From a virus, in the IMG/VR virus record IMGVR_UViG_3300021197_001468, positions 1 through 64,000 of that record: a stretch of DNA of 64,000 nucleotides; one strand, given 5' to 3'. Of this stretch, positions 1 to 64,000 are shown piece after piece (the first letter of the stretch is position 1; every line of letters begins with the position of its first letter). The notes below the pieces were generated by a model. That model was not told the origin of the DNA, ran no database searches, and worked only from the letters and a program-made list of their open reading frames with translations. The position numbers and the translations under genes were made by a program.

Positions 1-54
1 AGGCGGAGTCGGTCCAGCAGGCGGAGTCGGTCCAGCAGGCGGAGTCGGTCCTGC
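1..54. repeat. 18-bp tandem repeat coding for AGPTPP
   Basis: Three copies of an 18-base unit (AGGCGGAGTCGGTCCAGC on plus) lie head to tail at the window edge; the third diverges at its last bases. On the minus strand they encode Ala-Gly-Pro-Thr-Pro-Pro three times, a flexible linker. The array may continue beyond the edge. Confidence 0.9.
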
Positions 55-2568
55 GCGCCCGCCAGGCTCAACCCCACCAAACACGCGCTCCCAGAACTCG
101 TTCTGGTCTCGGCCCAGGTTTCTCTGGTAGTTCTTGGCTCGTGCATCCAGCAAAGCGGTGACGTAGTCCGCCTGCTGCACGCTCAGACCACCCTCGAGCA
201 TGCGCTCGCGCGCCAGCAGAGCAGACGATGAAAACCGGGGGATGCGGTTTGCGTCTTCGAGCAGTCGAGGATACTCAACAGGTGCGTCGATACCGAACTT
301 CTTCGCCAGCTTCTGCTTCATGATGACGATGGCTGCGAGCCTCGCTTCATGCGACACGCCGATGGCTTTGCGTCCTGATTCGATAGCCTCACGCAGCTTG
401 TCTGCGGCGTCTGCCCCGTTCGTGCTGAGCCAGTCTGGTCCCTTGCGGGCGAGAGATGCCGCAGCCGCTTCAGCCGCCTGGAGGGCGTCATCCGCTGCCT
501 TGACGCTCGCTGCCTGCGACGCGGCATCTGCGCCACTCGCTGCGATCTCGTTGAGCCGCTTGGTGTGCGCCGCCTGCGCCGCGTCTGAGAACTTCTTGCT
601 GAACTGCTGCGGGTCCAGGAACGCGTCCGCCAGGTCCTGGTCGAAGTTCAGGGGGTCGAAGCTCCTCAGCTCCCGGAACGCATCTTGGATCTTCTCGAGC
701 TCAACCTTCGAGGCAGTACGGAACTGCGGAGCCAAAAGACCGTCGTTCCCCGCTTCCAGAGCCTGGCCCAGCAGGTCGAACTCTTCCAGCCGGTTGCCCA
801 GGTTGTGGGCCTCCGCGTGAGAGATCACCATGGCCTTGTTCTGCGGGTCTGCTCCCGGCACGTTCGGCACGTAGGACCGAGCTCGACGAAGACCCGGGCT
901 CAGGTGAGGCGCGCGCTCACGCATGTTTCCCAGAATCTTCGAGGTCGAGCCTCCGCGCCCCGTGGTCAGCGTCACCTTGAAGTTGCCGTTCGGCAGAAGC
1001 TCGTTGACGGCAGCGCCTTCCTTCCCGCGGTTGGCGATGCGGTCGCCCGGAGCGTTCATCTTGTGGAAGGTCTCTGAGAACTTCTCCGCCTGGCTGTGGA
1101 TGTCGCGCATGAGAGACTTGTTTCCCGCGAACAAAGCAGCTTCTGCTTCGTCTACGCTCCGCATGCTGCGCGCGAGGTTGGTCGACGACGCGCCTGAGCC
1201 TGCCAGCTCCTCCATCCGAGACATCGTTCGGATCAGCTTCTTCGCCTTGCGTACATCCTTGACCTTCGTCGCTCCCTTCGAGAGGTAGCCAACAGGACCC
1301 AGCATGTCTGGGAAGAAGATAGACCCCAGGAATCCAAGCGTCCCCGCGGCAACCGCAGACTTCGTGTCCTTCTGTGCGAGCTCTGTCTCCAGAGACGCCG
1401 CAAACAGGTTGTCCTTCGACCCCAGGCTGCGCAGCACGCTCTTGCGGAAGTTCTCGTCGGTGAGCCAAGACGCGGGGTGCAGGATGCGTGGGTCTGTGCT
1501 GTCCCGGGCGGTGGTCGCGCGCACTGCTCCCGAAGCAACCATCTGAGGGATGTCGACCACGTCGAACGCAGTACGCATGCCGCTTGCCTGGCGAGCTACG
1601 ATGCCTGACCCAGCACGCCCGCCAGAGACACCCACGATCTCCATCGTAGGAGAGAACGCGTACCTCAGCGCTTTCTTAGTGTCGGACCAGGCTCCCGCAC
1701 CGTCCTTCTTCGACTCCCCGAGCAGCATGTCCTCTGCCACCAGGACGGGGGCGGACCAAAGGCCCGCGGTCTTGAACAATGCGATCTCGCGGAACGCCTG
1801 CCGGCGGTTGGCGGGGTCCTCCACGAAAGCGTTGTACCCTGGGTCATCGGGAGAAGGTGCGTTCGCCCGAAGGCGCTCGTCCACGTACGCACCCCAGCCG
1901 CCCTCTTGGGTGCTGTACAGGTTCAGCATCCGAGCGATGTTTGCGTTGTTGTTCACGATGTCGGTTGCGAGGGCAAGCGCTTCGGGCTGTGACATCTGGG
2001 CGAGCCGCTCTGCCTGGGTGAACTCACCGGTGTTGAGTACGCCGCTCTCGCTGACGTCCGAGTCCGTCACCTTGACCTGGGCAGGGCCGGAGAAGATGAA
2101 GCCCTCGTTGGAGTCCTGGACCCGCCCCGGGAAGTAGCTCTCCTTGACAGAGTCAGGGATGGTATCACCCGCAGCAGCCTTCTCGGTCAGGCCCTCCAAG
2201 ACGCGCGCGCGAGACTTCTGCATCTCCGACGAGCCGGCACTCTGCTCGTAGAGCTTCTTCACCGCTTCGCGGTTCTTCTCCGCAAAATCCAGGTACTCCG
2301 GAGCGGACTGCTGACGCCCGAAAAACCCAGGGTCGCGGCCCACCTTGGTGACCGCTTCGTCAACGTCGTAGCCCTGTGAGGCCAACGCACTCCGGTACTC
2401 GACTTCGGGGATACCGCGCGCCTGCGCTCGCACCGTGATGACTTGCTCGGGCGTCTCGTACGTGGGAGCATCTGAGCTCAGAATCTCAGTGCGTGCTCCC
2501 GCGACAGCGCCGACCAGAGAACGAAACTCGTCAGTCGCGTCGAAATCGTTGGTCACGTCTTCAGCCAC
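1..2568 (-). CDS. Giant virion protein, N-terminal 856 codons (partial at left edge)
   Basis: The frame is open without a stop from a GTG start at 2568 to the window edge. The start is set by GGAG five bases upstream. The visible part is mostly helical and hydrophilic, with no recognisable catalytic motif in its first 750 residues. The last visible stretch contains a segment (LSVQQADYVTALLDARAKNY) followed by FWERVFGG. That resembles the helical segment that commonly precedes the metallopeptidase in phage polyvalent proteins. The visible end is three copies of the hexapeptide AGPTPP. Position after the internal virion genes suggests an ejected virion protein. It is probably the N-terminus of the giant protein seen at 56909-64000; that is an inference. 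Confidence 0.85.
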   Translation of the reverse strand, partial: MAEDVTNDFDATDEFRSLVGAVAGARTEILSSDAPTYETPEQVITVRAQARGIPEVEYRSALASQGYDVDEAVTKVGRDPGFFGRQQSAPEYLDFAEKNREAVKKLYEQSAGSSEMQKSRARVLEGLTEKAAAGDTIPDSVKESYFPGRVQDSNEGFIFSGPAQVKVTDSDVSESGVLNTGEFTQAERLAQMSQPEALALATDIVNNNANIARMLNLYSTQEGGWGAYVDERLRANAPSPDDPGYNAFVEDPANRRQAFREIALFKTAGLWSAPVLVAEDMLLGESKKDGAGAWSDTKKALRYAFSPTMEIVGVSGGRAGSGIVARQASGMRTAFDVVDIPQMVASGAVRATTARDSTDPRILHPASWLTDENFRKSVLRSLGSKDNLFAASLETELAQKDTKSAVAAGTLGFLGSIFFPDMLGPVGYLSKGATKVKDVRKAKKLIRTMSRMEELAGSGASSTNLARSMRSVDEAEAALFAGNKSLMRDIHSQAEKFSETFHKMNAPGDRIANRGKEGAAVNELLPNGNFKVTLTTGRGGSTSKILGNMRERAPHLSPGLRRARSYVPNVPGADPQNKAMVISHAEAHNLGNRLEEFDLLGQALEAGNDGLLAPQFRTASKVELEKIQDAFRELRSFDPLNFDQDLADAFLDPQQFSKKFSDAAQAAHTKRLNEIAASGADAASQAASVKAADDALQAAEAAAASLARKGPDWLSTNGADAADKLREAIESGRKAIGVSHEARLAAIVIMKQKLAKKFGIDAPVEYPRLLEDANRIPRFSSSALLARERMLEGGLSVQQADYVTALLDARAKNYQRNLGRDQNEFWERVFGGVEPGGRAGPTPPAGPTPPAGPTPP

Positions 2569-2629
2569 GGTAACTCCAGATTGACGGTATGGTAACACCA
2601 ATCAGAGCACCGACGCAGGACGCAGGAGA

Positions 2630-3682
2630 CTACTCCGCTGCGAACTCTTCGCGCAGCGACTTGAGCGCTTCAATCTGGTCGCGCACACGCTCGTATTCTC
2701 GGTAGTCGTTTTTGACCTGGTCGAGGAGCTTGGCTTTCTCGGGGAACCGGCGACGCTCTGACGGGTCCATAATCTGGCGCATCGCCGCAACTCGGTCTGT
2801 CCCGAAAGGAAGCATCAACTCCCCCTCCCCCCGGTCTTCCTGGGCCACCTCGTCGATCACTTCCTGCGCGGTGACAGCGCGGACTTGCGAACGCGACTCG
2901 GGGCCCACGAACGTCTTCATAACGACACCGTCGGGGTTGCCGAAATCCATACTTGGGTCTGTCAGTCTCTCAGCCAGCTCTTCGATTCTCGTATCAATCT
3001 TACCCCGTACGGCTGCGGGGTCAGAGTTTCCTGCGCCCTTCGGAGCCCGGGGCTCTCGCATAAAGCCGCCCGTAGACTGGCGCATCATCTCCATCTCAGA
3101 CTGCTTCCCCGTAAGCCCCCTGAAGCGACGAGCCTCCGGCACCTTCTCGCGCCCGTAAAACTCCTCCTTCTCCTCGGGGAGCTCCTCCCTCTCTTCGAGG
3201 TACTGGAGAAACTTGGACTTGTAGTCGTCGGTGAGGCCCCGATCAGCCATCCGGCGAAGTGCTTCCTTCCGGCGTCGACCTTCCGGAGTCGATGCGTCGA
3301 AGTCGTAATCACGCGCAAACCGCTGACGAAGCTCAGTGGACTTTGTGCGGTCAACCCCAGGCATCTCCGTCGAGAAGCGAGACGTTGAGTCATCCCGCTC
3401 CTGCAGAAATGACGGTACCTCCGGAGTCGAGGGAGCGACCGGCTCGACCGGTTTGTCGGGCACGTCGGGCACGTCGGGCACGTCGGGCACGTCGGGCACG
3501 TCGGATGCTTCGTAGCCGGTAGTATCCGGCGGCTCGTTATCCGAGTCCCGTGCGACGGCGTTTGGGTTCTTTGGCTTCGGCTCCGCCTTCATCTCGACCG
3601 CAACCTCAACGGCCTGCGCCGCGTCCTCGTCTCCATCGGCTGCACCGAACACATCGTTGATAGTTAACCCCGAAAGACCCAT
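2630..3682 (-). CDS. Acidic 350-aa virion-associated protein with PDV repeats
   Basis: I do not recognise this protein. It is 350 residues, acidic and low in hydrophobics, which suggests a largely disordered N-terminal half. Residues about 62-77 are a perfect Pro-Asp-Val repeat, coded by a 9-bp tandem repeat. The C-terminal third is richer in charged helices (an EERE/LPEEKEE region and a final coiled segment around residues 300-345). GGGAGAG precedes the ATG and overlaps the stop region of the 978-aa gene, so the two are coupled. The next gene, the giant protein, starts 61 bases downstream. The location among internal virion genes suggests a structural or chaperone-like role. Confidence 0.8.
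   Translation of the reverse strand: MGLSGLTINDVFGAADGDEDAAQAVEVAVEMKAEPKPKNPNAVARDSDNEPPDTTGYEASDVPDVPDVPDVPDVPDKPVEPVAPSTPEVPSFLQERDDSTSRFSTEMPGVDRTKSTELRQRFARDYDFDASTPEGRRRKEALRRMADRGLTDDYKSKFLQYLEEREELPEEKEEFYGREKVPEARRFRGLTGKQSEMEMMRQSTGGFMREPRAPKGAGNSDPAAVRGKIDTRIEELAERLTDPSMDFGNPDGVVMKTFVGPESRSQVRAVTAQEVIDEVAQEDRGEGELMLPFGTDRVAAMRQIMDPSERRRFPEKAKLLDQVKNDYREYERVRDQIEALKSLREEFAAE
3455..3499. repeat. 9-bp tandem repeat (5 copies) coding for PDV
   Basis: Five exact copies of GTCGGGCAC lie inside the 350-aa gene and encode Pro-Asp-Val on the minus strand. It is a likely replication-slippage site giving length variation of a disordered linker. Confidence 0.9.
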
Positions 3683-3684
3683 GA

Positions 3685-6621
3685 CTACTCTCCCTCTGCG
3701 GTACGAACCGCTTCAGCCGCTTCCTCGAGTGCTTTCCGCCGTGCCGCGGCTTTCTCCGCCTGCCTCAGAGCCTCCATACCATCTACGGTGATGGACTCCT
3801 CCATGCCCTTGCGAGTCGCAGGAGGCAAGCCACGCGTTGGCGCAGCAACCTCGGCACCACCAAACTCCAATTCGGCGTCATCGTACGGCGAGACAGTTTT
3901 CTGTTCTCCTCCCTCGAGCTTGAACTCGTCGTCCTCTACTTCCGCCTTCTTGGCTCTCCGCTTCTTCAGCTCGGCGAAAGCCTCTTCGGACATGACGCTG
4001 GGACCGAGCACGCGACCCGTCCTCTCTCCTGTCTTCGGGTCGGCTTCCCGTACTTGGGGAGGGGTAGTCACTTCTCCTCCGGTACTCCGAGAAGGAGAAC
4101 GCGGTGCCCGCGTCTTGATGTTCTCCTCGGGCTCGACTGGCGGACCTACCTGCTCCCGGCCGCGAAGCAGGCCCATCCGCTGCATGAACCGCTGGAACTT
4201 GGTCTGGTACGACGGGTCTCGTGTGCCTGTCTTATCCGCGGCCTTCGTTCGAGCGGCTATCCCCGTCGTCGTTGGCTGAACATCCTCAGCCTCAATCATC
4301 GTGTCAGCCACGGGGGACTCGGGACGCTCACTCTTGGGCACAGGCTCTGCCCGCTGACGAGCCGATGCTTCAAGCAGCCCAGCGCCGGTCTCGATCGGCT
4401 CACCGTCTTCCTGCTTAAGCTGAGATTCACCGGTGCCGAAGACGGGTACTGGGTCAAGCGCAGGCTCGTCACCCACCGCTTCTTCTACGCGAGTGCCGGA
4501 CTCGGTGAGGGCATCGCCGATCTTCGCGTCAAGCTGCTCGACAGATCGCTGCGCGCGAATAGCTCGAGCACCTGGTTCCGACCTGGCGTACCTGGATTCT
4601 GCGTCGGCAAGATCAGACTTGGCCTGCTCGACCGCGCGACGAGCTTTAATGATTCGTTCTCTTCGCTTTTCGAGGGCCAAAGGCGGCTCAGCCGTCGCGA
4701 ATCTCACCCCAGGATTAAGCACTGCCAGAAGAGCTGTACGGGCTGTATCAAGTTCTCCTTGAGCCTTCTCTGCGGCGAGTTTCGCCGCTTCAACAGGAGC
4801 GGCTGCCTGTAGTGCCCCCGGCCTTGCTTCCTCCGACTCCTCCCGCGCCTTGTCAAGCTGGTCCTGGAGACCATCCTCGCCTTCACGCTCGCGCATCGAG
4901 GCAAGCTCAGGCCCCGTGGGGTCGAGGTCTTCTTCCTCCGTGAGTTCGACGCCCGCGTCTCGGCGTCCGCGCTGCTCAAGGCGGCGGTCTCGGCCAGCAC
5001 GGATGCGGTCTCCGAGCTCCGGCCGAACTCCCTCGATTACTTCGATGCTTTCCCGGTAGCCGTCGATGTCGCGCTCGACGATTTCTCCGGTTGTAACTGA
5101 CTGAAGTCGGATCTTTCCCCGCGCAATATCCCTTGCGTTCGGCTTGATTTCGCGATACTCTTGCTCACCGATACCCTGCTCTACTGGGTACTTCTGGGTG
5201 AGTGCTTCTGCTTCTGCTTTACCTGCCGCCATCTCCTTCAAGAGTTCATCTCGGCTAAGAGCTTTAAGCGCGTTCTCCAAAGTCCGGCCGCCCTGCGCAG
5301 GTACTTCGCGGTACGTCCCGTCGTCCGAAAGGGCCGTGTACTTTCCGCTCTCCGTGTCGTGGAACACCAACCCCACGTCGTCCACGCGGAATGACCCGAC
5401 CGTGCCCGCCCGGATGCCCCGGACCACCGCGCGCTCTGCCTCAGAGACATCAGCGGCGTCGAGCGGGTCTGAGGTGTACGCTCCCTCATCCTTGAGGCGG
5501 ACCAGTCGACCCTGCCGCTTGGCGGTGAGGTCGAGGCCAGACTGGTTCTGGAGCGCGAACTTGACCAGGGCCCCCTTGTCGGCGGCAGCTGGTCTGTACG
5601 TCGAGGTAATGGGGCGGCCCGTCTCGGGGTCGATGTCTACGCTGCCGATCTTGATGCCGTTGGCCTCGGCCCAGAGCTGGAACCGGGGGTCTCCGATCAG
5701 CCGAGCGATCCGCGTGTCGTCCGAGGGGGCGCGGTCAAGCTGAGCTTCAATCCGCTCCTGGAGGCGGTTGAGCTGCCTGAGTGACTCGTCTCCCGCGAGG
5801 AGCTGGTCTCGCTCAGCTTTGAGCTCACCCGCGTCACCGATTCCACCCATGACCTGGGTGATGCCCGCCTGGAGCTGCCCTTCGAGCGCGGCCGCGTCTT
5901 CGGCGGCCAGCCTGCCCGTTTGCTGAATGGTATCAATCGCGCCCTGCATCTGACCACGAACGCCAGTGGCGAGATCGCGCTGACCCACGGCCTTCCGGTA
6001 GGCGGGGGCGGTCGCCTGCAGCAGGTCTTGCACCGCCAGCTTCGTCTGGTCACCCAGATTCACGCCCTCGACTTCGCCGACGTTGCCGTTCGTGGGGTTG
6101 ATCTTGAACAGCCCTTGGCGGCTCAGTTCGAGCAGCGTCGCATACGTCTTCTCTGGCGACATCGTAACGCCGGGACGCTCGCCGAAGAATGGGTTGCTCG
6201 CGAACGCGAGCAGCTGCTGGCTCGGGGTCTGCTGCTGTGTTCGAGTCAGCAGCTGCGTGACCTTGGCAGCGTCGGGGGTGACACTCTTGTCCAGGCGACG
6301 CACGGTCGTTTCCAGGCGCGATGACGCCGTCGTCAGGTCCTTCAGCGCGGCCTGCTGACTCTTGGCCTCCAGACCCATCAGCGACAGCTTGGTGTCACCG
6401 AGCAGCTTGAGCGACTCCAGCTGCGCCTTCACACGAGATGCGCGAGCGCGCTGGGCTACCGCCGTCCCTGACGTGAAGTAGTCCGTCCGCTGCGCGGAGA
6501 GGTCCCTCAAGTACTGGATCAGCTTGAGCTCGTCCAGCTGGGCCACCGCCGCAGGGCCAAGTGGCACCGAGCCATCTTCGACGCCAAGAATCGGTAGGAG
6601 GAGGTTGGCGTAGCTGCTCAT
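3685..6621 (-). CDS. 978-aa putative internal virion protein
   Basis: No enzymatic motif is recognised. The N-terminal 330 residues are alpha-helical, with several heptad-like segments (about residues 25-110 and 195-300). Residues about 330-500 look more globular (DPETGRPITSTYRP, VGLVFHDTESGKYT). The region from about 520 to 760 is highly charged coiled coil (EEEDLDP, EREGEDGLQDQLDKAREE). The C-terminus is acidic and disordered. Size, helical make-up and place between the 201-aa protein and the giant gene fit an internal (ejection) protein of short-tailed phages, analogous in position to T7 gp15/gp16 but with no recognised similarity. The start overlaps the upstream stop by four bases (ATGA), so it is translationally coupled. 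Confidence 0.85.
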   Translation of the reverse strand: MSSYANLLLPILGVEDGSVPLGPAAVAQLDELKLIQYLRDLSAQRTDYFTSGTAVAQRARASRVKAQLESLKLLGDTKLSLMGLEAKSQQAALKDLTTASSRLETTVRRLDKSVTPDAAKVTQLLTRTQQQTPSQQLLAFASNPFFGERPGVTMSPEKTYATLLELSRQGLFKINPTNGNVGEVEGVNLGDQTKLAVQDLLQATAPAYRKAVGQRDLATGVRGQMQGAIDTIQQTGRLAAEDAAALEGQLQAGITQVMGGIGDAGELKAERDQLLAGDESLRQLNRLQERIEAQLDRAPSDDTRIARLIGDPRFQLWAEANGIKIGSVDIDPETGRPITSTYRPAAADKGALVKFALQNQSGLDLTAKRQGRLVRLKDEGAYTSDPLDAADVSEAERAVVRGIRAGTVGSFRVDDVGLVFHDTESGKYTALSDDGTYREVPAQGGRTLENALKALSRDELLKEMAAGKAEAEALTQKYPVEQGIGEQEYREIKPNARDIARGKIRLQSVTTGEIVERDIDGYRESIEVIEGVRPELGDRIRAGRDRRLEQRGRRDAGVELTEEEDLDPTGPELASMREREGEDGLQDQLDKAREESEEARPGALQAAAPVEAAKLAAEKAQGELDTARTALLAVLNPGVRFATAEPPLALEKRRERIIKARRAVEQAKSDLADAESRYARSEPGARAIRAQRSVEQLDAKIGDALTESGTRVEEAVGDEPALDPVPVFGTGESQLKQEDGEPIETGAGLLEASARQRAEPVPKSERPESPVADTMIEAEDVQPTTTGIAARTKAADKTGTRDPSYQTKFQRFMQRMGLLRGREQVGPPVEPEENIKTRAPRSPSRSTGGEVTTPPQVREADPKTGERTGRVLGPSVMSEEAFAELKKRRAKKAEVEDDEFKLEGGEQKTVSPYDDAELEFGGAEVAAPTRGLPPATRKGMEESITVDGMEALRQAEKAAARRKALEEAAEAVRTAEGE

Positions 6622-14758: not shown

Positions 14759-15829
14759 TCAGCTCGGGTTGGCCGAGCCGCCGCCGACGACACCGTGGGC
14801 GGGGAGCTTGGTGGAGATGAGGTTGGCCTGCATCGAGAAGACGGCGGTGACCACGTCCTGGTCGCCGACGCGCTCCTTGAACTCAGACATCTGCGGAGCC
14901 TCGTGGACGGGCATCTCCAGGTAGTCGGAGTTCAGGATGTAGGTGACGCCGTTGCTGGCGTTGCCCGTCGCGCTGAAGTCGTTCCGGTCGAGGTCGATGG
15001 ACGAGTACACCTTGGCCAGACCGAGGCTGAGCTCGATGGTGTTGGTCTTCTGGTCGACGCCGTCCTGGATGGTGCTGACGTTGACGCGGAAGTTGTTGGC
15101 CTGGTTCTCCTCGAACTGGGTGTAGACGTCCTGGTCCATGTAGACCAGGTCCGGGCCCTTGCCCATGCCGCCAGCGTAGTGGGCGCACTCGCGGTAGGTC
15201 TTCCGCAGGACGGAGATGTCGAACGGCGCGCCGCCCATGTTGCCGAACTGGTTGAAGTGGAAGTAGCTCGAGGACTTGGCGACACCCTGAACCACGTCGT
15301 TCTGCGTGGCGGGGGTGGCGAAGTCGAGGAGACCGTTGGTGACGCCGGTACCGATACCGGTGCTGACCTCGCCGTTGAGGGTCAGGAACCCGCGGAGCTC
15401 GGAGGTCTGGAAGACGATGCCGCGCGAGACACCGGTCAGGAAGTACTTGTTGAGGTCAGCCTTCACACCGTCCATGACGGTCTTCGGGTACTCCTCGATG
15501 AGACGCATGATCGCCAGCTTGCCGCTGTTGAACATGAGCTCCTTCTTGGGGATGTTGACAGCGACCACGATCCGGTGGGGCTCCACCTGGAACTTCTTGA
15601 TCTGCTGACGCCGCGTCATGTTGAGCAGCTCGTCGCCGACGTAGATGCCGACGCCGCGTGCGGGCGCGCCACCCGTGAAGGAGCGCTCGATCAGCGAGCC
15701 GCCCTCCATCGGCATGCGGGCCTTCTTGTCGAGGCACTCGAACAGCTCATTGGAGCGCACGAAGGAGTTGACGAGCGGACCGCGCAGGTCGGCAAACGTC
15801 GTGTTCAGAACTTCGGTAGAGATAGGCAT
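14759..15829 (-). CDS. Major capsid protein (356 aa)
   Basis: A 356-residue protein of major capsid size. It has the features of HK97-fold capsids: an N-terminal arm (MPISTEVLNTTFADL), an E-loop-like glycine segment (MPMEGGSLIERSFTGGAPAR), a long spine helix (KLAIMRLIEEYPKTVMDGVK) and a beta C-terminal P-domain-like region (SDYLEMPVHEAP, VVTAVFSMQANLISTKLP). It has its own sigma-70 promoter about 130 bases upstream and a GAGGTCC ribosome site. It is followed by a perfect stem-loop and the decoration gene. Scaffold and portal are on the opposite strand, which is unusual. Confidence 0.9.
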   Translation of the reverse strand: MPISTEVLNTTFADLRGPLVNSFVRSNELFECLDKKARMPMEGGSLIERSFTGGAPARGVGIYVGDELLNMTRRQQIKKFQVEPHRIVVAVNIPKKELMFNSGKLAIMRLIEEYPKTVMDGVKADLNKYFLTGVSRGIVFQTSELRGFLTLNGEVSTGIGTGVTNGLLDFATPATQNDVVQGVAKSSSYFHFNQFGNMGGAPFDISVLRKTYRECAHYAGGMGKGPDLVYMDQDVYTQFEENQANNFRVNVSTIQDGVDQKTNTIELSLGLAKVYSSIDLDRNDFSATGNASNGVTYILNSDYLEMPVHEAPQMSEFKERVGDQDVVTAVFSMQANLISTKLPAHGVVGGGSANPS

Positions 15830-17653: not shown

Positions 17654-17682
17654 TTGACTCCGCGAGTGATACCGTGATAGCA
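17654..17682 (+). promoter_or_regulatory. Possible divergent promoter between head operons
   Basis: On plus, TTGACT, a 17-base spacer and ATAGCA lie in the 45-base gap between divergent head genes. The -10 is poor and touches the first possible terminase ATG, so either transcription is leaderless or the true terminase start is the ATG at 17763. On minus, TTCGTG, 17 bases and TATCAC could serve the 73-aa gene. Confidence 0.35.
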
Positions 17683-19334
17683 TGGTAGCACGAAACGAAT
17701 CCAAGCGCAGGCCCAGCCTGTTGCCTGGCGGCGCAGAGATCCATGAGGCTCCTGGTCTGAACATGACCAAGGTCCACGCGATGTTCGCCACGCCAGACGC
17801 CTTCGTGTCGATGTGTCAGATCGTTCGTGAGAACGAGTCAAGCGGCTATCTGACGCCGACACCAACCCAGCAGAAGCTGTTGAAGGCGTACGCCACCAAC
17901 CGGTGGATGCTCGTAAACAAGTTCAGGCAGGCGAAGATCACCACCATCTCGGTGATGTTGTTGCTGCGCGACTGCATGTATCTGTCGGGTGTGAAGGGGC
18001 TGCTCATCGCTGAGCGACACGACACCGCAGAGGACATCTTCGAGCGCATCCTGTACGCGTACAACCGCCTGCCCGACGACGTGAAGATGCCGCTGGCCAA
18101 GGGGCGCAAGGCGGGCACGACGCAGATTCACTTCTGCCACGGTGGTAGCATCAAGATTCTGACCGCGGGCGGACGCTCCCCCGCCATCGGTCGGTCGGTC
18201 GACCGCCTCATCATCACCGAGTTCGGTGAAGCGCAGTGGCAGAAGAAGGCGGCCATCAACATCTTCCCGACGCTGAACAAGCGGCCCAACGCGCGGGTGA
18301 TTCTGGAGAGCACGCCGGGGCGAGCGGGGTCTCACCACGAGACCATGTGGCGTGCGTCTCTCGAAGGGCGTGGTCGCTTCAGGCCACTGTTCCTCGAATG
18401 GTGGCACGACGACTCCTGTCGGGTGGACGCCACTGGGTTTGAGCCCACGAACACCGAGCGTGAGTACCTGGCGCAGCACCCCGGCATGTCGATGGAGCAC
18501 CTGGCCTTCCGCCGGATGGGCCTCGAGACGGAGATGGGCGGGGACCCTCGGTTGTTTTCCTCCAAGTATCCGTCGAACCCGTACGACGGTTGGATCGGAA
18601 GCCTGGCCCCGGTGATGCCCACTGAGATCTTGCAGCCCATGCTGGACAAGGCGGTGAACGATCCTGAGATCGGTCCCTTCGGGGCCCGGGAGATCTCACC
18701 CCCACGCCAGGACGGTTCCTACCTGATCACGGCTGACCCCGCTGGGTTCGGCGCTTCTGGGGATAAGAGTGCTCTGACTGTCTTCGACGCTATCAACCGA
18801 TGCGAGGTGGCGTTCTGGGAAGACAGAGAGACTCCAGACAGATTCGCGCGCCGCCTGATGAAAGTCCAGGAGAGGTACAACGGAGCCATGCTGGTGGTTG
18901 AGTCGAATGCGACAGCCGCCATCACCCTGCTGAAAGACTCAGGAGTCAAGCGGCTGCTCTGGACTGACCGCAATCACCCCGGCTGGTACGCCACGGCCAA
19001 GCGCATCCAGGAGGCCGAAGCCAAGCTGGTCAAGATGCTGCGCGAGGACGACCTCTTGCTGAGAAGCCGCGGTCTCCTGCACCAGCTCTTGAACTACGAC
19101 GGGTCCCGCAAGAAGCGCGTGAAGGGCCTCGACGGAACCACGCACCACTTCGACCGCGCAAGAACCGCTGTCATGGCGGCCGACGTATTGAGCAGAAGGA
19201 ACTTCACCGCTACACAGTTGCGGGAAGAGCCTCGCAATCGTCCGGTCGGGCAGGTTACCATTGGCGACCTCGACCTGTTCCGCAAGGGAAAGAAGCGGGG
19301 ATTCGCCAAGCCCCTTCCCCGTGACTGGATGTAG
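17682..19334 (+). CDS. terL: Terminase large subunit
   Basis: 550 residues with the ATPase-nuclease layout of large terminases. The P-loop region is NKFRQAKITT (about residues 78-87), where the usual Gly is Ala. The Walker B region is RLIITEFGEAQW (about 176-187), with Thr-Glu in place of Asp-Glu. A C-motif-like ILESTPG is at about 207. RNase H-like nuclease acidic residues are seen in ADPAGFG (about 351), VVESN (about 405) and HHFDRARTAV (about 488). It cuts and pumps DNA into the prohead through the portal. The ATG at 17682 has no ribosome site; the ATG at 17763 is an alternative. It is divergent from the small basic head genes. Confidence 0.92.
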   Translation: MVARNESKRRPSLLPGGAEIHEAPGLNMTKVHAMFATPDAFVSMCQIVRENESSGYLTPTPTQQKLLKAYATNRWMLVNKFRQAKITTISVMLLLRDCMYLSGVKGLLIAERHDTAEDIFERILYAYNRLPDDVKMPLAKGRKAGTTQIHFCHGGSIKILTAGGRSPAIGRSVDRLIITEFGEAQWQKKAAINIFPTLNKRPNARVILESTPGRAGSHHETMWRASLEGRGRFRPLFLEWWHDDSCRVDATGFEPTNTEREYLAQHPGMSMEHLAFRRMGLETEMGGDPRLFSSKYPSNPYDGWIGSLAPVMPTEILQPMLDKAVNDPEIGPFGAREISPPRQDGSYLITADPAGFGASGDKSALTVFDAINRCEVAFWEDRETPDRFARRLMKVQERYNGAMLVVESNATAAITLLKDSGVKRLLWTDRNHPGWYATAKRIQEAEAKLVKMLREDDLLLRSRGLLHQLLNYDGSRKKRVKGLDGTTHHFDRARTAVMAADVLSRRNFTATQLREEPRNRPVGQVTIGDLDLFRKGKKRGFAKPLPRDWM

Positions 19335-42012: not shown

Positions 42013-42033
42013 CGGGCACACAGAGAGATCCTC

Positions 42034-42636: not shown

Positions 42637-42643
42637 ACGCTCC

Positions 42644-42671: not shown

Positions 42672-42683
42672 ACTGGGGGTCCG

Positions 42684-42917: not shown

Positions 42918-42927
42918 CTCACACTAC

Positions 42928-43033: not shown

Positions 43034-43046
43034 CCAGGAGAATCCA

Positions 43047-43445: not shown

Positions 43446-43767
43446 CCTCGACACCTTGGTTGAGGTCATGGCAGACCTGAACCCCCAGGCGTGGTTCCTC
43501 GAGCCGACTGAAATGTACAACCCGTGCATCATCGGGATCACGAAAAGCCCGGAAGACCACTGGCCTCGTCGGCGAGAGACCTGGGTCCTCATCTACGACG
43601 CGGAAAAGTGCATCGAAGCAATCGCGCACTCGATGCTCGAAGACGGGGAAGAACTGGTCGACGGAGAAGTGTACGAGGCCGCCGTGCAGTGGTTCGAGTT
43701 CAACACCAGCGGCGGTTGGGTGGGCGAGAACACGCCAGCTTTTAAGTACGTCGGGTGGGAAGAATGA
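43438..43767 (+). CDS. 109-aa acidic protein, unknown
   Basis: IDLDTLVEVMADLNPQAWFL, EPTEMYNPCIIGITKSPEDH, then ETWVLIYDAEKCIEAIAHSM and an acidic helix. Trp-rich and acidic; no family recognised. Its ATG overlaps the upstream stop and its stop overlaps the methylase start (ATGA), so it is co-translated with both. Confidence 0.7.
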   Translation: MIDLDTLVEVMADLNPQAWFLEPTEMYNPCIIGITKSPEDHWPRRRETWVLIYDAEKCIEAIAHSMLEDGEELVDGEVYEAAVQWFEFNTSGGWVGENTPAFKYVGWEE

Positions 43768-47100: not shown

Positions 47101-47103
47101 GCC

Positions 47104-47132
47104 TTGACACCTTGGTAGAGCCCCCCTATATG
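47104..47132 (+). promoter_or_regulatory. Sigma-70-type promoter after the polymerase gene
   Basis: TTGACA, 17 bases, TATATG. Transcription would begin near 47139. ACAGGAGAAGG precedes the next ATG at 47158. It serves the 140-aa, ATPase and zinc-ribbon genes. Confidence 0.75.
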
Positions 47133-47157
47133 TAGAGGGCCACACAGGAGAAGGCCC

Positions 47158-47580
47158 ATGAACGAAGCACGCTGGTTCCTCGCCCACCGAAAGAGCGAGG
47201 ACCGCCTCGTCGAGAACTGGGTCGCTCAGTTGCGCGACACGGTACTCACTACCCCCGGCTGGAAGACTGTCGTCACCCCTGGCCGGGACGACTACAACCG
47301 GAAGGCCCGCGCGGTTGGCTCATGGGACGCTTGGTGTCTCGATGTCGCCAAGCGGACCGACTACCGCGGAGAGGCGACCTACCACGGCGTCATCTTCCCC
47401 TACGTCGGGGAGCTTGTCGTGGGACGAGCGACCTACCTCATCCTCATGAACTTCATCGGCCAGGGCAAGCACGTCTACGGCTGGGACGTCATGAGCGGTG
47501 GTCTGTACACCATCGACACCCTCGAAGTCCTCGACCCCGACGACTTCATGCAGCATGCTCAGATTCGGTTCAAGGAGTAA
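47158..47580 (+). CDS. 140-aa protein, unknown
   Basis: A helical N-terminus (EARWFLAHRKSEDRLVENWV) followed by a beta domain (WDAWCLDVAKRTDYRGEATY, VVGRATYLILMNFIGQGKHV, YTIDTLEVLDPDDF). Trp- and Tyr-rich, no family recognised. GGAGAAGG before the ATG. The ATPase gene starts two bases after its stop. Confidence 0.72.
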   Translation: MNEARWFLAHRKSEDRLVENWVAQLRDTVLTTPGWKTVVTPGRDDYNRKARAVGSWDAWCLDVAKRTDYRGEATYHGVIFPYVGELVVGRATYLILMNFIGQGKHVYGWDVMSGGLYTIDTLEVLDPDDFMQHAQIRFKE

Positions 47581-47582
47581 CC

Positions 47583-49115: not shown

Positions 49116-49348
49116 ACTGCCCCAAATGCGGATGCCGGACACGCGTGCGGGAGACGCGCCATCCGGATCACGCATCGAGCCTGACCAGCTCCTCCATCGC
49201 GGGGAAGGCTGAAGAGGCGGCAGGCTGGTACACTGCGGACTGGGTGGCGAGGTCACGCCACTGTACCAACAAGGTATGCGGTCAGCGCACTACGACGGTC
49301 GAATTGACGCTCGAAGATCTCGAGCGGGGATGGCAGCGGCGGGAGTGA
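49112..49348 (+). CDS. Ogr/NrdR-like zinc-ribbon protein (78 aa)
   Basis: CPKC at the start and CTNKVCG about 50 residues on form a four-cysteine zinc ribbon. 'MxCPxCG......R.C.n..CG...tt.E' is the pattern of phage Ogr/Delta late activators and NrdR-like ribbons. The C-terminus ends in LTLEDLERGWQRRE. It probably binds DNA or RNA polymerase to control transcription. GTG start overlaps the ATPase stop. A 9-bp stem-loop follows. Confidence 0.78.
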   Translation: MNCPKCGCRTRVRETRHPDHASSLTSSSIAGKAEEAAGWYTADWVARSRHCTNKVCGQRTTTVELTLEDLERGWQRRE

Positions 49349-49363
49349 AGTGCCTGTGCCTTA

Positions 49364-49393
49364 GTGCGCCGCTGTCCCCCGATGGCGGCGCAC
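49364..49393 (+). terminator. Stem-loop before the DUF927-type gene
   Basis: GTGCGCCGC and GCGGCGCAC pair over 9 bp with a 12-base loop, after the zinc-ribbon stop. CACACACAGAGAGACAC and the next ATG follow at 49430. Confidence 0.65.
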
Positions 49394-49429
49394 AGTGCTA
49401 CAAACGAGAAGCCACACACAGAGAGACAC

Positions 49430-56908: not shown

Positions 56909-59900
56909 TTATCGCGAGCTGGGGCGAACGGTTTCCATCTTCTCACGGGGCTCGTCGGACCTGCGTGCCTGAGCCCGCGTGATCTCTCCCGTCTGCACTC
57001 CCAGAATGGTCTGGGCCCAGATGACCATGCCCATGCGCGTCGTCGGGTAGGGGATCTCTACGACGGAGCCGTCGTCCCGCTCGATTGAGAAAGACTGGCC
57101 TGCGACCCCGGCCCGCTCGAGCGGAGTCCTCGTCATGGGCAGCTCTGACAGCATCATGCGGTTGAGCTCGTTCAGCCCCGTAGCAACGAACAGCGCCTGG
57201 TAGACGCCGGGGAACATGTAGTACCGAGTCTCGGTGAGGTTCCTCTGCGTACGAATCGGAAGGGGCATCGGCGACGGGATCTCATCAGAGAGCTCGTAGC
57301 GCATAGCGGAACTCTCTCCCTTCATGCCCAGCAGCCGCAAGTAGTCTCCGCGGGTGCGGATTCCCGGGTTGCCGTTCTTGTACTTCACCCACATGCCATC
57401 CGCGTACTTCTTCGCGCGAGCCTCACTCATGCCGTCCCTTCGACCCAGGCGGTAGCTGACTCGATGGAAGTCGTCCAAGATGTCGAAGTCGTCGCTCTTC
57501 CCAATCGCGTTGGGGTAGAAGATCGCCATCTGCACATCTTCTGAGTTCTTCAGCTTTCCCTTGTACGGCGAGAAGTACTTGTAGACGTAGTCCATCTGGT
57601 CTTCTGGGGTCATCGCCAGGAGTGCTTCGTTCGTTGTGCCCAGCGTGTCTCGCGCAGTCTTGTCCATGAACTGGATGAGACCCCGTGCAGATGACTTGCT
57701 GTTGGCGGCTTGATGATCGAACCGGCTCTCTGCCCGGATGGCATTTGCGAGATGCATCGGATCCATCTCAAGAGCCAGGGCGACGTCCGTGATCTTCTGC
57801 GCCAGCGTCGGGGTCAGCTTCGGGTACCTCGGGCCGTACTTGGACATAATCATGTCACGAGCGGCAGCGCCGTCAGTTCCGGCTTCGTCGAGCAGAGGCT
57901 TGTAAACCTCGATGTCGCCGAGCTCATTCATTTCGAGAAGCTGGTTGGCCTGGTCGACAGACATCACGCCGTCAGCCACGGCTTGATTGAGGTCGCTCTT
58001 CGCCGGGATCTTGATCAAGTCGAAGTCTGCGCGAGATGACTCGATGAACTTACCCAGGCGAGGCGATACTCGAATCGGAGTACCTGTCACGTCGCTCATA
58101 ACCAAGGGGAAGAAGAACTGATTCAGGATCGGAGCGCGCTCGATCTCTGCGATGTTGCGCACATTCTCCATCGCGACTTTCCCGTACGGGTAGCCCGCGC
58201 CCGCGTCAGGGCCCAGGTCAAGCCCCAGGGGCTCTGTGGCGATGCCCGCAGTCGACTGAGCCATGTCCAGGCCCGCGTTCATCATCAGCAGAATCAGACC
58301 TGCCCGAGCGGCGAGCTGACGCATGGCGCTCTCGACGGAGGACTCAGGAAGGTAGACCTCCTTGTAGGCGCGGTCGGGTGTGATCTGCGAAGACAGGCGG
58401 TAGAGGAGCTTCGCCTCTGGGGTGGGGACCAGCGGCACCGCAATCCCCAGGCGGTCCCGCATGAAAGTGCGGCGCGCTGAGGGGTCGGGCGCACGCACCG
58501 TGGACTGTGCGACGCGCTTGAGGAAGTCGCTCTTCTCGGCTGCTGCGAGGAACTGAGACGGACGGACGTACTCCTCGGCCCCGTAGGTCGAAGAGCCGAA
58601 ACCTCCGTACGCCTGGCCTTCGATGATGGCCGAGCCGCCACGAGCCATACCGCTGAGCATGGCGCGCAAGTACTTACGCTCCTGCGCGGGTATCCGGCCA
58701 GTACCGTCACGACCTGCGTAGCCGTACTCGAGGAACTCCCGCAGGTCAGCAGGCATCTCCTCCAGCGGAACCCAGTCCTTACGCTCCTTGCCCGCGTTGT
58801 ACTGAGCGAGCAAGAACTCGTAAGACGACGGCTTCATCTCCTCGATGGGCCCCATACCCACCAGGATCTGCATCTTGAACGTGGCGTAGTTCTGGCGATC
58901 TTCCTCGCTCAGCGAGCTCTCGGATACACCGAACTCGTCGACCATGCACTCGTACAGCAGGTACGTTGCGGCGTCTGCTGTCCGCGCCTGCCCACGCCTA
59001 AGCACGCCCATCCGATATGCCCCGGCGGGCGAAAACAGGTTGTTCATGAACTGGCGGTTGGCGTTCTTCTGGAAAGCCCAGAAGGGGAAGAGGACGTTGA
59101 CCCACCACTGCCGGTCGTTGTCAGCCATCGAGCCTGCGTAGTCGTACAACGCCCGCACCGAACTGCGGGCTGCCGTACGTGGGTCAGCGCCAAGCTCGAT
59201 CAGCGTGACCATCGCCCCGACCCGCTCACGCTCGGACCAGGCTTCTGCCGTGTCAGTGAGGTGGTTGCGCCACCACTCCATGCCGTTCGCGATGCCCACA
59301 CCGCCACGGTCTCCCAGCATCTGCGCCTGGTCCTTCTGAGCCTCCTTCAGCGTCTTACCCAGCTGAGACACGTCGAACGAGGCGAAGATTCCTTCCTCCA
59401 CAGCAATCTGCCGAAGCTGCTTGGCATCGTAGAGGTTGCCGCCCAGGTTCATCACCCCGTCGCGCCCGTCCAGGATGTCGTTGACTTCGACGCGCCACTT
59501 CGAGTTGGAGACCAGACGGCTGACGATGTTGGCTGCCTTGTCGCCGCCGCGCTGGATGACGCGCCGGAACTTCTCGGGAGCCTGGGGGTCGCGGACAGCC
59601 GCTGCGGCGAGCACAACGCTCATCCCGGGCAATGTGGCGAAGTCATTCGCGATGACGCGCATCGTGGACGCGGTTGCAGCGCGGAACCCGATCTCCATAC
59701 CCAACTGGTTGAAGTGGTCATAGGTGTTCATGAAGAAGTAGCGCTGCTTGATGAGATACGCGCCACGGACCATCGAGATCTTCAAGAAGCGGTTGTACAC
59801 ATCCCAAAGGGAGCCGAAGTACCTGAAGTCCTCGGAGTCCATCCGCTTGACCAGACCACGCGAGAGCGCGTTCGACAAGCGATCTCGGGCTGCCTTCGGG

Positions 59901-62900
59901 ACGAAGAAGTCCGGAGCGAGCACTGAGTCCTTGAAGAACTCAGGGTTCATCCCAAACGTGCGCGCGATGTTCTCGACCTTCGGAACCATCTCGGGGGCGA
60001 TTGTCATGCCCCGAGACCACTGCTCGAACGCGTTCATCGTGTCCGCGTCGATGTACATTCCGTAGTTCGCCCAGTCCTGACGAACCCGAGACGCTGTCCC
60101 ATTCGCACCGATAATCACCGCAGCCCGAGCCATGGCGCTCTCGCGAGAGTGAGCCCCGAACTTCTTCTTCGCCTGGCTCTGCTGTGCCGCGCCGAGGATC
60201 TCCTCCAAGAAGTCCCGCACGCCCTGCTCAGACGAAGACGCAGCTTGCTTGTAAACAGCACCGCCTCCCGCAGAAGTCCCGGACTTACGCCCGATCACTC
60301 CTGTGTGGTACAGGAATGCCTCGAACGCCTGATAGCCCACCGGGCTGAGGACCTCGGCTTCTCCAGGAGCCACCATCGTCGTGGTGTAGTCCTTGAACAC
60401 TTCCATGCTGCTGCTCTTGCCCGAGCGGAACAGCTTGTTGACAGCCGCCACGGCGCGGTTGAAAGAGGGAGTCGCCAGCTTGCCCTGCGACACGGTAGCG
60501 CCGCCCCCGGCGGCCACGGTCACCCCATTCCTCTCCCGCACGCCTACGGCGTTCCCGAAAGTCTGCAACGCACTCTTCTCCGCAGGAGTGAGGACGTTGT
60601 CGACATAGGTAGCAATCTCCCTTCGGAGGTCGCCGAACTTGTCGGTTCCGCTGGTCAAAGCAGGGCGACCGCCTCGACGGAACGAGGCCAAGCCTCCCGA
60701 CAAGTATACCACAAGCTGGTCGAGTGCGTCGGCGCGCTGAGCGTCTTTTTTCGCCGAAACATACTCGGTGGTCAGTCGCACAGAGTCGCCGACTGCCTGC
60801 TCTACCCGACGCACTCCCCCCAGCATCTTCTCCCGAATGACAGGAGACACGTTCGCCAGGTCTACGAACTCGTCTGCCCCGAGCATAGTCTTGCCCGCGA
60901 TCTCCACCAAGGGGCGCGCCTTGTCCATGAAACGGGCAGCGCGAATGTCTCCGCGACTGATGAGCTCCTGCGCAGTCTCCTCACCGAAAACCTTGACCAG
61001 CTGAGCTCTCTGGTTCGCCATCTCGACGGCACTTTCGCGGCTCGTCCGGGTGAAGTCGTAGAAGGACTCCGTGAACGTGGGCGCGCGCTTCCGGTCCTGC
61101 AGCAGGCGAGTACGGAAAGGCTCTGCCATCAGCATCGACTGGACTGAGTCACCGGACTCGTCGTATGTCTGCTGCATCTCACGAAGGCGTTCAGCCGTGT
61201 AGGTGTAGGAGTTGCCGTCCTTGACCTGGTCGGGGAACAGCTGGGGGAAGATCGGCTTGCTCGTCTCAAGAACGACGGTACCGCCGCGAGTGCGCTTCCC
61301 GCCTTCGGGCAGCCGACGCATCAGCTCAGCCAGATCGACGTCGGTCCCAACCCGGCTTGCTTCGTCGACAACGCGCTCCAGGAAGGGCTTGCCAGGCCGT
61401 GCGATCTTTGATACACTGGAACCACGAAGAGCCTTGATCTTCTTCTGAAGAAGCCCAAGCACAGTGGGAAGTGGGTCACCGTCTGCGGGCAAGTCCTTCA
61501 GGAGCGGGGTGAACACCTGAGCGATGTCGTCGGCGACGTCCGCTCCAAGCGTCCGGGCCACCCGGAACGCCTGCGTGTAGTCGTCGCGCATTGCCTGGAA
61601 CACCGGCTTCAGCCCGTCTGCGTCGGCTGCCAGTTCGTTGTTCTTGATGAACGTACCCAGGATGTCGCTCAGGACCTCGTCGGCCAGACGGAGGTTCTCA
61701 GGTGTTCCAGTCAGCACGCTTCCGCTGCGGCCCACGTCGATGCCTCGTCCGCGGATGATGACTGCGATGCCTTCGACTGTATCGGCGGGCAGGTCCCTGA
61801 TGAGAATGCGCGCAGTCGCTCCAACGAGCGTCTCCAGCTCCTCTCCCTCGAAGCCCTTGAGCAGGGCGCGGCTGTCCTCGGCGAAGCGCAGCACGGGGTC
61901 GGCGGGGGCGCTCGGAGTCGGCGCGCTGGGAGGCGCGGCGCTGAGCAGGATGTCCCCGCTGTCCCGCGGCGAGGAGCGGTAGCTGAACAGGGTGCGGTCG
62001 TCTCCGGCTCTACGCGTAAAGCGGACCTTCTCGGCGCTGGGGTCCAGCGACATCACTACTGTCTGAGAGGGGAACATCGCGCGATCGATACCGCTTAGCG
62101 CACCTCCCTTGCTCGCATAGTCGTTGACGTTGTTCAAGATGACAGCGTCGTGCCCGAGGTCTCGGCCCACCCGAGCCACGTCGTCAGTGAACGTCAACGG
62201 GGCGGTGAGCTGAGTGAACTGCTCGTCCGTCAGCGGCTGATACCGAGATGATGCGTCGGCTCTTTCAGGCAGAGGAATCGAGCGCCCCTGGTCAAAACCG
62301 CGGACAACCTCACCATCTCCCACACCGGAAACCAGATTACCCACGCGCGTCAGCCGGGCCATTCTCTGGCTCGTGTCACTGCCTTGTGTGTAGTCTTCTC
62401 CACGTCCAAGCGGAAAATACTGACCGTAGCGCGGAGGAGGTGCACCCAGAAACATCTCCTCGAGAGCTTTTGTCGCCTTTTCTTCCGCAGCGCTCTTGAG
62501 GTTGAACAGCTCTGCGCGAGAGCGGAGCGTCGGAGGACTGGGGAAATCTGGGTACTTGGTCTCGTACCAAATCACAGCGTCGAGCTCATCGGTGAGCCTC
62601 CGCGTCTCCTCCAGCGCGGCACGAGCACGAATCACCTGGGGCGATGAGAGATTGATTGTGCTTGCAGCCGTCAAAGGTATCTTCGTGTAGTCCCCGCCCA
62701 GAGCGTCGATTACGAGAGGATTGTCCGACTTGGTAAACGCAGTGACGACACCCTCCGCATCAGCGTCTCCGCGTCCCACGTAAGTCGAGGCAAGGTCCGC
62801 TGCTCCGCTGAAAAGGGTTCCTTCCGAAGACTTCAGTTTGCCGGGGTCGACCCCTTCGCGTAGCAGTGATTCGACATCTGGCGTGTAGTGCGCCGTCTGA

Positions 62901-64000
62901 ATCACAACGGGCTCACCTGTCCGCACAGCCAAAGACCCCCCGCGATCTTCGACTTTCGCAATCGCTTTGTCTCCTGCCCATGCGAGAATCTGCTCGTCAA
63001 CGTCACCGGCGACAGAAGCCGGGTCGGCCATAGCGGTCGTCCCTTCGAGGGGGCGGTAGGACATCAGCGTCGTTCCGCCGTCTTCTCCCGTCTTGACGAA
63101 GCCGCTGGCTTCCAGATGGTTCACGAGTCGCGGGTTGACGACCTCAACATTCATGGTCGCGCTGGGGCTCGCCTCCAGAATCTCTGTGTCGAACCTCAGC
63201 AGCGCGTCGTCGATCAACTCGGTGCCCAAACCGTTGCCGCGGTAGGCGGGGTCGATCACCACGTCGAACGAGTAGTTGTCCCCAACGAGCGAATCGAACA
63301 GAACGCCCGCGATATCGCCGTCTTCGTCGACGAGAACAGTGTTGACATCCTTGTCGCTCAGAATGTTTACGCCGTTGGTTTTAGCGAACGCAAAGGGGTC
63401 GGGAACTACGGCGAGCTCATCGAGCTCATCCAGGCTCAAGCGAGACAGATTCAGGTTGTTGGTCGGGACGTCGAGAGCCGCCCGCCCGGTAGCCGTGCGC
63501 CTGATTGAGGCACTGCGAGAAGCCAGACTGAGGAACTCGTCGCTCGCGTCAATGACTTCCTCGAACGCGGTGCGTTCGCCCGGTGACACCGGCTTACCCT
63601 TGTTGAACAGCCGCGCGATGAGGTCGACGAACTCGGTGAAGACAGAGCCCTTCGTAGACTGCGACATCGGAGGAAGAGTCTTGAGGTAGTTCGTGACGAT
63701 GCCATTGCTCATCGCGTGCGAAATGATCTCGGTAGCTTTCGAGTAGTCGCTACCCGTAGGTCCGAGCACCGCCGTCTTACTGATGTAGTTGTACGTGCCG
63801 TTGAGAAAAGCCACATCATCCGCTGTGCGTGACGCCTCCGGGATCTTTTCGATCTGACTTTTCCGCTTATTTGCTGCGTCCATCACGTAATCAGCCAGCG
63901 AGATCAGACGGTCCCGCGACTTACGCAGAGGACTCCCCTTCGGCGCGTACTCTGCGGCGCGCAGCGCAGGCGTCGTCGCTGCGTGGAGAAGCTCATGAGT
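56909..64000 (-). CDS. Giant polyvalent virion protein, C-terminal 2,363 codons (partial at right edge)
   Basis: The frame is open from the edge to TGA/TAG at 56909. The first visible residues are THELLHAAT, a zincin HExxH (about residues 2-6), with Glu of KATEIISHAMSN (about 88-100) the probable third ligand. Then come a GNAT acetyltransferase (about 210-320; DPAYRGNGLGTELIDDAL) and an ADP-ribosyltransferase-like domain (about 368-665; SSEGTLFSGAADLASTY and GHDAVILNNVND). A long helical middle follows, with an LPD38-like segment. Near residues 2070-2220 is a lytic transglycosylase (IRAESRFDHQAANSKSSARG, LIQFMDKTA). Such polyvalent proteins are packaged and ejected, acting on host wall, proteins and defences. 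It is probably one gene with the 1-2568 frame. Confidence 0.88.
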   Translation of the reverse strand, partial: THELLHAATTPALRAAEYAPKGSPLRKSRDRLISLADYVMDAANKRKSQIEKIPEASRTADDVAFLNGTYNYISKTAVLGPTGSDYSKATEIISHAMSNGIVTNYLKTLPPMSQSTKGSVFTEFVDLIARLFNKGKPVSPGERTAFEEVIDASDEFLSLASRSASIRRTATGRAALDVPTNNLNLSRLSLDELDELAVVPDPFAFAKTNGVNILSDKDVNTVLVDEDGDIAGVLFDSLVGDNYSFDVVIDPAYRGNGLGTELIDDALLRFDTEILEASPSATMNVEVVNPRLVNHLEASGFVKTGEDGGTTLMSYRPLEGTTAMADPASVAGDVDEQILAWAGDKAIAKVEDRGGSLAVRTGEPVVIQTAHYTPDVESLLREGVDPGKLKSSEGTLFSGAADLASTYVGRGDADAEGVVTAFTKSDNPLVIDALGGDYTKIPLTAASTINLSSPQVIRARAALEETRRLTDELDAVIWYETKYPDFPSPPTLRSRAELFNLKSAAEEKATKALEEMFLGAPPPRYGQYFPLGRGEDYTQGSDTSQRMARLTRVGNLVSGVGDGEVVRGFDQGRSIPLPERADASSRYQPLTDEQFTQLTAPLTFTDDVARVGRDLGHDAVILNNVNDYASKGGALSGIDRAMFPSQTVVMSLDPSAEKVRFTRRAGDDRTLFSYRSSPRDSGDILLSAAPPSAPTPSAPADPVLRFAEDSRALLKGFEGEELETLVGATARILIRDLPADTVEGIAVIIRGRGIDVGRSGSVLTGTPENLRLADEVLSDILGTFIKNNELAADADGLKPVFQAMRDDYTQAFRVARTLGADVADDIAQVFTPLLKDLPADGDPLPTVLGLLQKKIKALRGSSVSKIARPGKPFLERVVDEASRVGTDVDLAELMRRLPEGGKRTRGGTVVLETSKPIFPQLFPDQVKDGNSYTYTAERLREMQQTYDESGDSVQSMLMAEPFRTRLLQDRKRAPTFTESFYDFTRTSRESAVEMANQRAQLVKVFGEETAQELISRGDIRAARFMDKARPLVEIAGKTMLGADEFVDLANVSPVIREKMLGGVRRVEQAVGDSVRLTTEYVSAKKDAQRADALDQLVVYLSGGLASFRRGGRPALTSGTDKFGDLRREIATYVDNVLTPAEKSALQTFGNAVGVRERNGVTVAAGGGATVSQGKLATPSFNRAVAAVNKLFRSGKSSSMEVFKDYTTTMVAPGEAEVLSPVGYQAFEAFLYHTGVIGRKSGTSAGGGAVYKQAASSSEQGVRDFLEEILGAAQQSQAKKKFGAHSRESAMARAAVIIGANGTASRVRQDWANYGMYIDADTMNAFEQWSRGMTIAPEMVPKVENIARTFGMNPEFFKDSVLAPDFFVPKAARDRLSNALSRGLVKRMDSEDFRYFGSLWDVYNRFLKISMVRGAYLIKQRYFFMNTYDHFNQLGMEIGFRAATASTMRVIANDFATLPGMSVVLAAAAVRDPQAPEKFRRVIQRGGDKAANIVSRLVSNSKWRVEVNDILDGRDGVMNLGGNLYDAKQLRQIAVEEGIFASFDVSQLGKTLKEAQKDQAQMLGDRGGVGIANGMEWWRNHLTDTAEAWSERERVGAMVTLIELGADPRTAARSSVRALYDYAGSMADNDRQWWVNVLFPFWAFQKNANRQFMNNLFSPAGAYRMGVLRRGQARTADAATYLLYECMVDEFGVSESSLSEEDRQNYATFKMQILVGMGPIEEMKPSSYEFLLAQYNAGKERKDWVPLEEMPADLREFLEYGYAGRDGTGRIPAQERKYLRAMLSGMARGGSAIIEGQAYGGFGSSTYGAEEYVRPSQFLAAAEKSDFLKRVAQSTVRAPDPSARRTFMRDRLGIAVPLVPTPEAKLLYRLSSQITPDRAYKEVYLPESSVESAMRQLAARAGLILLMMNAGLDMAQSTAGIATEPLGLDLGPDAGAGYPYGKVAMENVRNIAEIERAPILNQFFFPLVMSDVTGTPIRVSPRLGKFIESSRADFDLIKIPAKSDLNQAVADGVMSVDQANQLLEMNELGDIEVYKPLLDEAGTDGAAARDMIMSKYGPRYPKLTPTLAQKITDVALALEMDPMHLANAIRAESRFDHQAANSKSSARGLIQFMDKTARDTLGTTNEALLAMTPEDQMDYVYKYFSPYKGKLKNSEDVQMAIFYPNAIGKSDDFDILDDFHRVSYRLGRRDGMSEARAKKYADGMWVKYKNGNPGIRTRGDYLRLLGMKGESSAMRYELSDEIPSPMPLPIRTQRNLTETRYYMFPGVYQALFVATGLNELNRMMLSELPMTRTPLERAGVAGQSFSIERDDGSVVEIPYPTTRMGMVIWAQTILGVQTGEITRAQARRSDEPREKMETVRPSSR

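Follow-up and report, generated by a model that had tools for sequence, protein, structure and literature searches.

A giant phage gene of polyvalent content that almost certainly spans both ends of an uncultivated phage genome record

The virion RNA polymerase of phage N4 (gp50, Schitoviridae; PMC12633501) is a protein of ~3,500 a.a., and a chain of comparable size is almost certainly encoded across the two edges of the viral DNA analyzed here (a stretch of 64,000 nt from an IMG/VR record, hereafter the window). The two share a ~900-a.a. helical N-terminal part, a ~100-a.a. linker, and a zincin of the C1 family placed ahead of a large helical C-terminal region, and each gene, at the close of the late run that follows the capsid gene, faces the replication genes. 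Phage polyvalent proteins (Iyer et al. 2017, PMC5512222) likewise carry several unrelated enzyme domains per chain and are encoded near late genes. In contrast to N4 gp50, no RNA polymerase domain was found in the window protein, Pfam and PDB searches giving no polymerase match, and unlike the polyvalent proteins of PMC5512222, its family has large conserved end domains to which no Pfam model matched in the members scanned.

The preliminary description of the window, made from its letters alone, reported an open minus-strand frame cut at each edge and read the two as probably one gene of more than 3,219 codons. Both frames are present where they had been placed (Table 1). The left frame has no stop between base 1 and a TTG at 2601 and counts 856 codons from the GTG at 2568; GGAG lies a few bases upstream of this start, and the protein begins VAED (compare MAET and MPEP in relatives). 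The right frame runs from 64000 without interruption until the stop codon at 56909, 2,363 codons in all (hence 856 + 2,363 = 3,219 in the window), and its first residues are T-HELLH, so that the right piece does begin with a HExxH motif. As the full record is 64,675 bp, we fetched the remaining 675 bases, which form exactly 225 codons free of stops in the frame of the right piece, with several stops in the other two frames; the claimed agreement in phase between the ends therefore holds.

Upstream of HELLH, a short region is followed by a Pro/Gly/Thr linker (PAGPVSGPTTGPVAGPTTPPPGPTTGP..., GPTTPP-type) that runs to the last base of the record. This right-hand counterpart of the AGPTPP linker occupies record positions 64376–64675, beyond the window, while the base-1 end of the left frame reads AGPTPPAGPTPPAGPTPP and is encoded by a perfect 18-bp tandem repeat. 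Because the right continuation and the left end are both Pro-rich, the linker at the two record ends is of one kind. With the ends abutted, the frame is preserved (7,767 and 2,601 bases, each a multiple of three), for a minimum protein size of 856 + 2,588 = 3,444 a.a. (~374 kDa). We found no terminal repeat or overlap between the two ends, and no read or contig spans the 64675-to-1 junction of this phage. The gene would thus run on the minus strand from the GTG at 2568 to base 1, across a frame-preserving gap that is probably a few 18-bp repeats, and from record position 64675 to the stop at 56909, the assembly having presumably opened a circular map inside the repeat encoding the GPTPP hinge of the giant protein.

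Table 1. Coordinates of the giant gene, its domains, and the reference genes of the map (window positions unless given as record positions)
Feature	Position	Strand	Basis or detail
N-terminal part of the giant gene	1..2568	-	856 codons from GTG 2568, open frame
AGPTPP linker repeat at the left end of the record	1..51	-	18-bp unit x 2.8, 100% matches (Tandem Repeats Finder); translation
Conserved helical N-domain	~64-2463	-	HMM built from relatives only, E=4.9e-78; residues 47-846 of P0001
Major capsid protein; starts the late-gene run leading to the giant gene	14759..15829	-	phrog_9953, E=7e-19
Terminase large subunit (TerL), reference point of the circular map	17682..19334	+	phrog_2, E=4.2e-21
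Conserved C-terminal tail and stop	56909..57304	-	BLAST to relatives, C residues 2458-2588
SLT lytic transglycosylase domain	57452..57820	-	Pfam SLT, E=2.1e-6; PDB 9udh_A, E=1.3e-22
Conserved C-core, ~1,150 model positions	58046..61888	-	HMM built from relatives only, E=2.6e-269; alignments A2/A4
Degenerate second zincin, start of the C-core	61496..61888	-	Alignment A2
GNAT acetyltransferase-like domain	63080..63358	-	Pfam Acetyltransf_10, E=1.8e-5, 25.1 bits against a cut-off of 23.6
Zincin metallopeptidase module, part in the window	63551..64000	-	HELLH 63983-63997; full module to ~record 64267

Direct scans of viral_contigs with the left and right pieces returned no relatives, and scans of the 'phages' set with the same pieces returned SLT matches only, so the major capsid protein was needed as bait; it was followed by the conserved core, for ~60 IMG/VR loci in total. 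The capsid scan gave 28 loci. Among 17 records searched, six matched the right piece, within frames of 2,827–4,227 a.a., and three matched the left piece, two of which (G011 and G014) have the left- and right-piece matches in a single frame; by BLAST, both pieces lie in a single ORF in G003, G006, G011, and G014. The core-alignment scan gave 42 loci, partly the same records as before. Across these sets, the left-piece domain and the right-piece core occur in one frame in 33 of 34 uncut giant ORFs (2,190–4,227 a.a.; the 33 include a few near-duplicates), the exception, L124, being a distant relative with a partial core match. HMMs built from the relatives only, with the window left out, recognized both pieces (Table 1). 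We conclude that the two edge genes are almost certainly one giant gene of ~3,444 a.a. or more, and consider it highly probable that this is one gene on a circular map.

The suggestion that the product is among the largest proteins of short-tailed phages stands, although it is no record, with two relatives at 4,227 a.a. (L083 and L059, the latter from G003); L083 has three HExxH motifs. A more distant giant frame, open at its 5′ end and exceeding 4,037 a.a., is found on the 91.6-kb contig L121. A core scan of 84,980 prokaryote genomes confirmed no relative, and thus no host was found. The Poorviridae (PMC11654794) were considered as possible relatives and set aside, as nothing links them to this group.

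How much is missing between the record ends bears on the size of this single gene. About 16 loci have a Pro-rich linker after the N-domain, and at least eight (L091, L092, L096, L100, L107, L115, L118, and L122) have the order N-domain, Pro linker, and HExxH zincin. In those eight, 166–463 a.a. separate the end of the N-domain from HExxH; the window, with its ends abutted, has ~248 a.a. (the left piece from residue 846 on, plus 227), a value within the range of the relatives, and so the gap may be just a few repeats. As a sub-case of the same single-gene reading, and not exclusive with it, the gap could encode additional domains, at least one and amounting to hundreds of codons or more, making the protein and genome clearly larger than 3,444 a.a. 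and 64.7 kb. The middle modules of the relatives, at 139–2,090 a.a., would allow this, as would the several Pro stretches seen in some (two or three with a domain between in L091, L096, L103, and L111) and the 65–76 kb of the near-complete relatives, but a similar GPTPP repeat stands at both ends and the distance noted above already lies within the range of the relatives, making such an insertion unlikely.

Alternatively, on the same circular map, the giant gene could be split in two, with a stop after the N-domain linker and a separate zincin start within the gap. The junction itself is unsequenced and the ends of the protein are conserved as separate modules in the relatives, yet not one of the 33 uncut relatives with both domains has a split gene, and both linker pieces are in frame and stop-free to the record ends. 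We looked for a stop codon following the Pro linker, for a start of its own ahead of HELLH, and for a fixed genome end between the two, and found none, the frame instead continuing beyond the right edge of the window. A split is accordingly rated very improbable.

The placing of this single gene across the record ends is further addressed by the map. The record encodes a capsid protein, terminase, portal, DNA polymerase, primase, helicase, and a Sak4-like protein. Identity of the major capsid protein to that of the IMG/VR relatives is 67–72% in most and up to 90%, and the terminase large subunit is 60–72% identical in 13 relatives. In the window and the relatives alike, the late (capsid) genes form a same-strand run that begins with the capsid gene and ends with the giant gene. 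TerL and the giant gene are 15.1 kb apart in the window and 13.9–16.9 kb apart in 17 near-complete relatives; the spacing is constant on a circular map in 18 records, in G028 only with the contig ends joined, where the upstream late genes lie at the right end and the giant gene at the left end. Overlapping contig ends were found in six of the 17 near-complete relatives (G006, G011, G018, G019, G024, and G028). In G011, G015, and G006, the junction of the window is internal and their own ends correspond to the mid-window region, the relatives of 65–76 kb having one common circular map cut at differing places. Since the junction is internal and the breaks lie elsewhere in relatives, the map, as read from gene order, is circular, in the manner of genomes that are circularly permuted and packaged by headful, a mode suggested by the T4-like terminase and the P22/SU10-like portal. 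That the two pieces belong to different proteins of a longer linear genome, the record being an internal fragment and its Pro-rich linkers coincidental, would fit the lack of terminal overlap and a record slightly short for the group, but the left piece holds the N-domain only and the right piece the zincin, core, and tail only (complementary halves of one conserved protein), none of the genes for capsid, terminase, portal, DNA polymerase, primase, and helicase is lacking, and the TerL-to-giant distance fits the circular map, so that we give this reading next to no credence.

The view that the window is close to the whole of a circular or permuted genome is therefore supported. The size of 64–65 kb given with it holds as a lower bound only, since the stretch between the ends is unsequenced; the near-complete relatives (65,342–76,063 bp) are all longer than this record of 64,675 bp. 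Elsewhere on the map, the replication module of G014 is inverted relative to the structural module (contig ~49162–62300; window 37221–51502 against L063–L066). At 29227–30783 of the window, two long ORFs overlap on opposite strands (480 a.a. on the minus and 489 a.a. on the plus), of which the minus ORF has the better coding score, with no match in the seven relatives compared. Directly upstream of the giant gene, at 2630–6621, are two genes of 350 and 978 a.a. that are hardly conserved in relatives, where large ORFs hold their position; they possibly encode host-recognition proteins.

Within the giant protein, two conserved end domains enclose a variable middle. The N-domain (~800 a.a. in the window) is modeled by AlphaFold as mostly helical, at pLDDT 70 and a pTM of only 0.44, its last helix ending at residue 841; model and translation together bear out the earlier account of a helical segment followed by a Pro linker. 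The C-core was modeled with a pTM of 0.69 and contains the motifs RYFxMNTxDHFNQ, AWxERERLGAM, and DYAGSM...PFWAFQKNANRQ. No Pfam model reached the conserved end domains (~800 and 1,150 positions) in the members scanned, the only PHROG reached by them was phrog_9880 (by the core), and PDB sequence and fold searches with both domains gave nothing usable. Structure matches to the C-core were obtained with BFVD entries A0A516MBM2 and A0A516MAA7 (E = 1.4e-34 and 1.4e-32, 26–28% identity), and weaker ones (E ~0.1), to be taken only as a lead, carry the annotation 'large polyvalent protein associated domain 38'.

The middle between the conserved ends spans 139–2,090 a.a. in relatives, where it carries zincin, GNAT, ART-PolyVal (ADP-ribosyltransferase), Rho_N, DNA methylase, LPD23, and PBECR5 domains; a nuclease is also among the variable contents of the family. 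The window chain has a zincin, a GNAT domain, a degenerate second zincin, and an SLT domain placed between the C-core and C-tail. In a longer query, the GNAT match scored 23.4 bits, just below the cut-off of 23.6. An ADP-ribosyltransferase after the GNAT domain was considered and dropped, the family ART model giving no match. SLT was not detected by Pfam in six relatives. A phage 'Internal protein' (PDB 9k2v, chain E) similarly has SLT in a large internal protein, its likeness to the window protein being confined to that domain (E = 6e-6).

The zincin module by itself matches the virion RNA polymerase profile phrog_2206 (E = 1.3e-9), which is reached through the zincin part only (profile 2063–2243 of 3406), and aligns with the N4 C1 domain at an hhalign probability of 98.7 (E = 2.3e-16). 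In alignment A7, H128, E129, H132, and the downstream E217 are invariant in 14 members. The second zincin reads TLVGATARILIR in the window as against TLVHEMGHILR in relatives. The second zincin of the window is thus dead (GATAR for HEMGH) and the first (HELLH) intact; G014 and G011 lack the first but have an intact second one, and two HExxH motifs occur in G003. The active zincin seems to have changed its place along the chain.

Beyond the zincin, motif B (Rx3Kx6-7YG) was not found in the giant protein of the window, and the N-domain and C-core gave hhalign probabilities of <1% against the N4 NTD and CTD/C2; homology of these parts is rejected at the profile level, and the conserved ends may have a deep structural kinship with the N4 NTD and C2. 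The window genes had no match in N4 at 25–60 kb (tblastn, E 0.1). On the polyvalent side, the right piece combines domains of unrelated activities (zincin, GNAT, and SLT), and Pfam detected ART-PolyVal in five relatives and LPD23 and PBECR5 in one each, with no polyvalent-specific domain (ART-PolyVal, LPD, PBECR) found in the window. Given an N4-type zincin, yet no polymerase domain and dissimilar ends, the protein is, on its sequence, one with a plan like that of N4 gp50, polyvalent in content (PMC5512222), and outside the N4 polymerase family. The polyvalent identity proposed earlier is thereby upheld and sharpened, in that the zincin is specifically of the N4 virion RNA polymerase type.

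Zincins of polyvalent proteins have been proposed to cleave the chain they belong to, either inside the head or once delivered (Iyer et al., PMC5512222), and the N4 preprint proposes a beads-on-a-string passage through the tail. By analogy, the giant protein would be a late product that is loaded into the capsid and enters the host together with the DNA, packaging and transit being tasks of the conserved ends. The zincin may free cargo by cleaving the chain, upon packaging or delivery or later; GNAT and other middle enzymes would act on host targets, and the SLT domain could open the cell wall. We hold this mechanism as a whole to be somewhat probable. More tentatively, the N-domain and C-core might be an undescribed delivery frame of uncultivated short-tailed phages, taking 139–2,090 a.a. 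of cargo through the tail, with the N4-type zincin acting in many members as a release knife.

The record very likely represents an almost entire genome that was opened within a single gene, and offers an example of how linker repeats of giant proteins break viral contigs. The product of that gene is one of some 40 giant phage proteins, a family as yet unstudied, in which the ends are constant and the enzyme-bearing middle is hypervariable; within these searches, its members were met in uncultivated phages only. With this family, two questions become testable: how such chains get through a narrow tail, and how a polyvalent protein is divided between delivery parts and cargo. If the reading as a delivery frame is true, these proteins would be a counterpart of the ejected polymerase of N4, with exchangeable effectors in the place of the polymerase.
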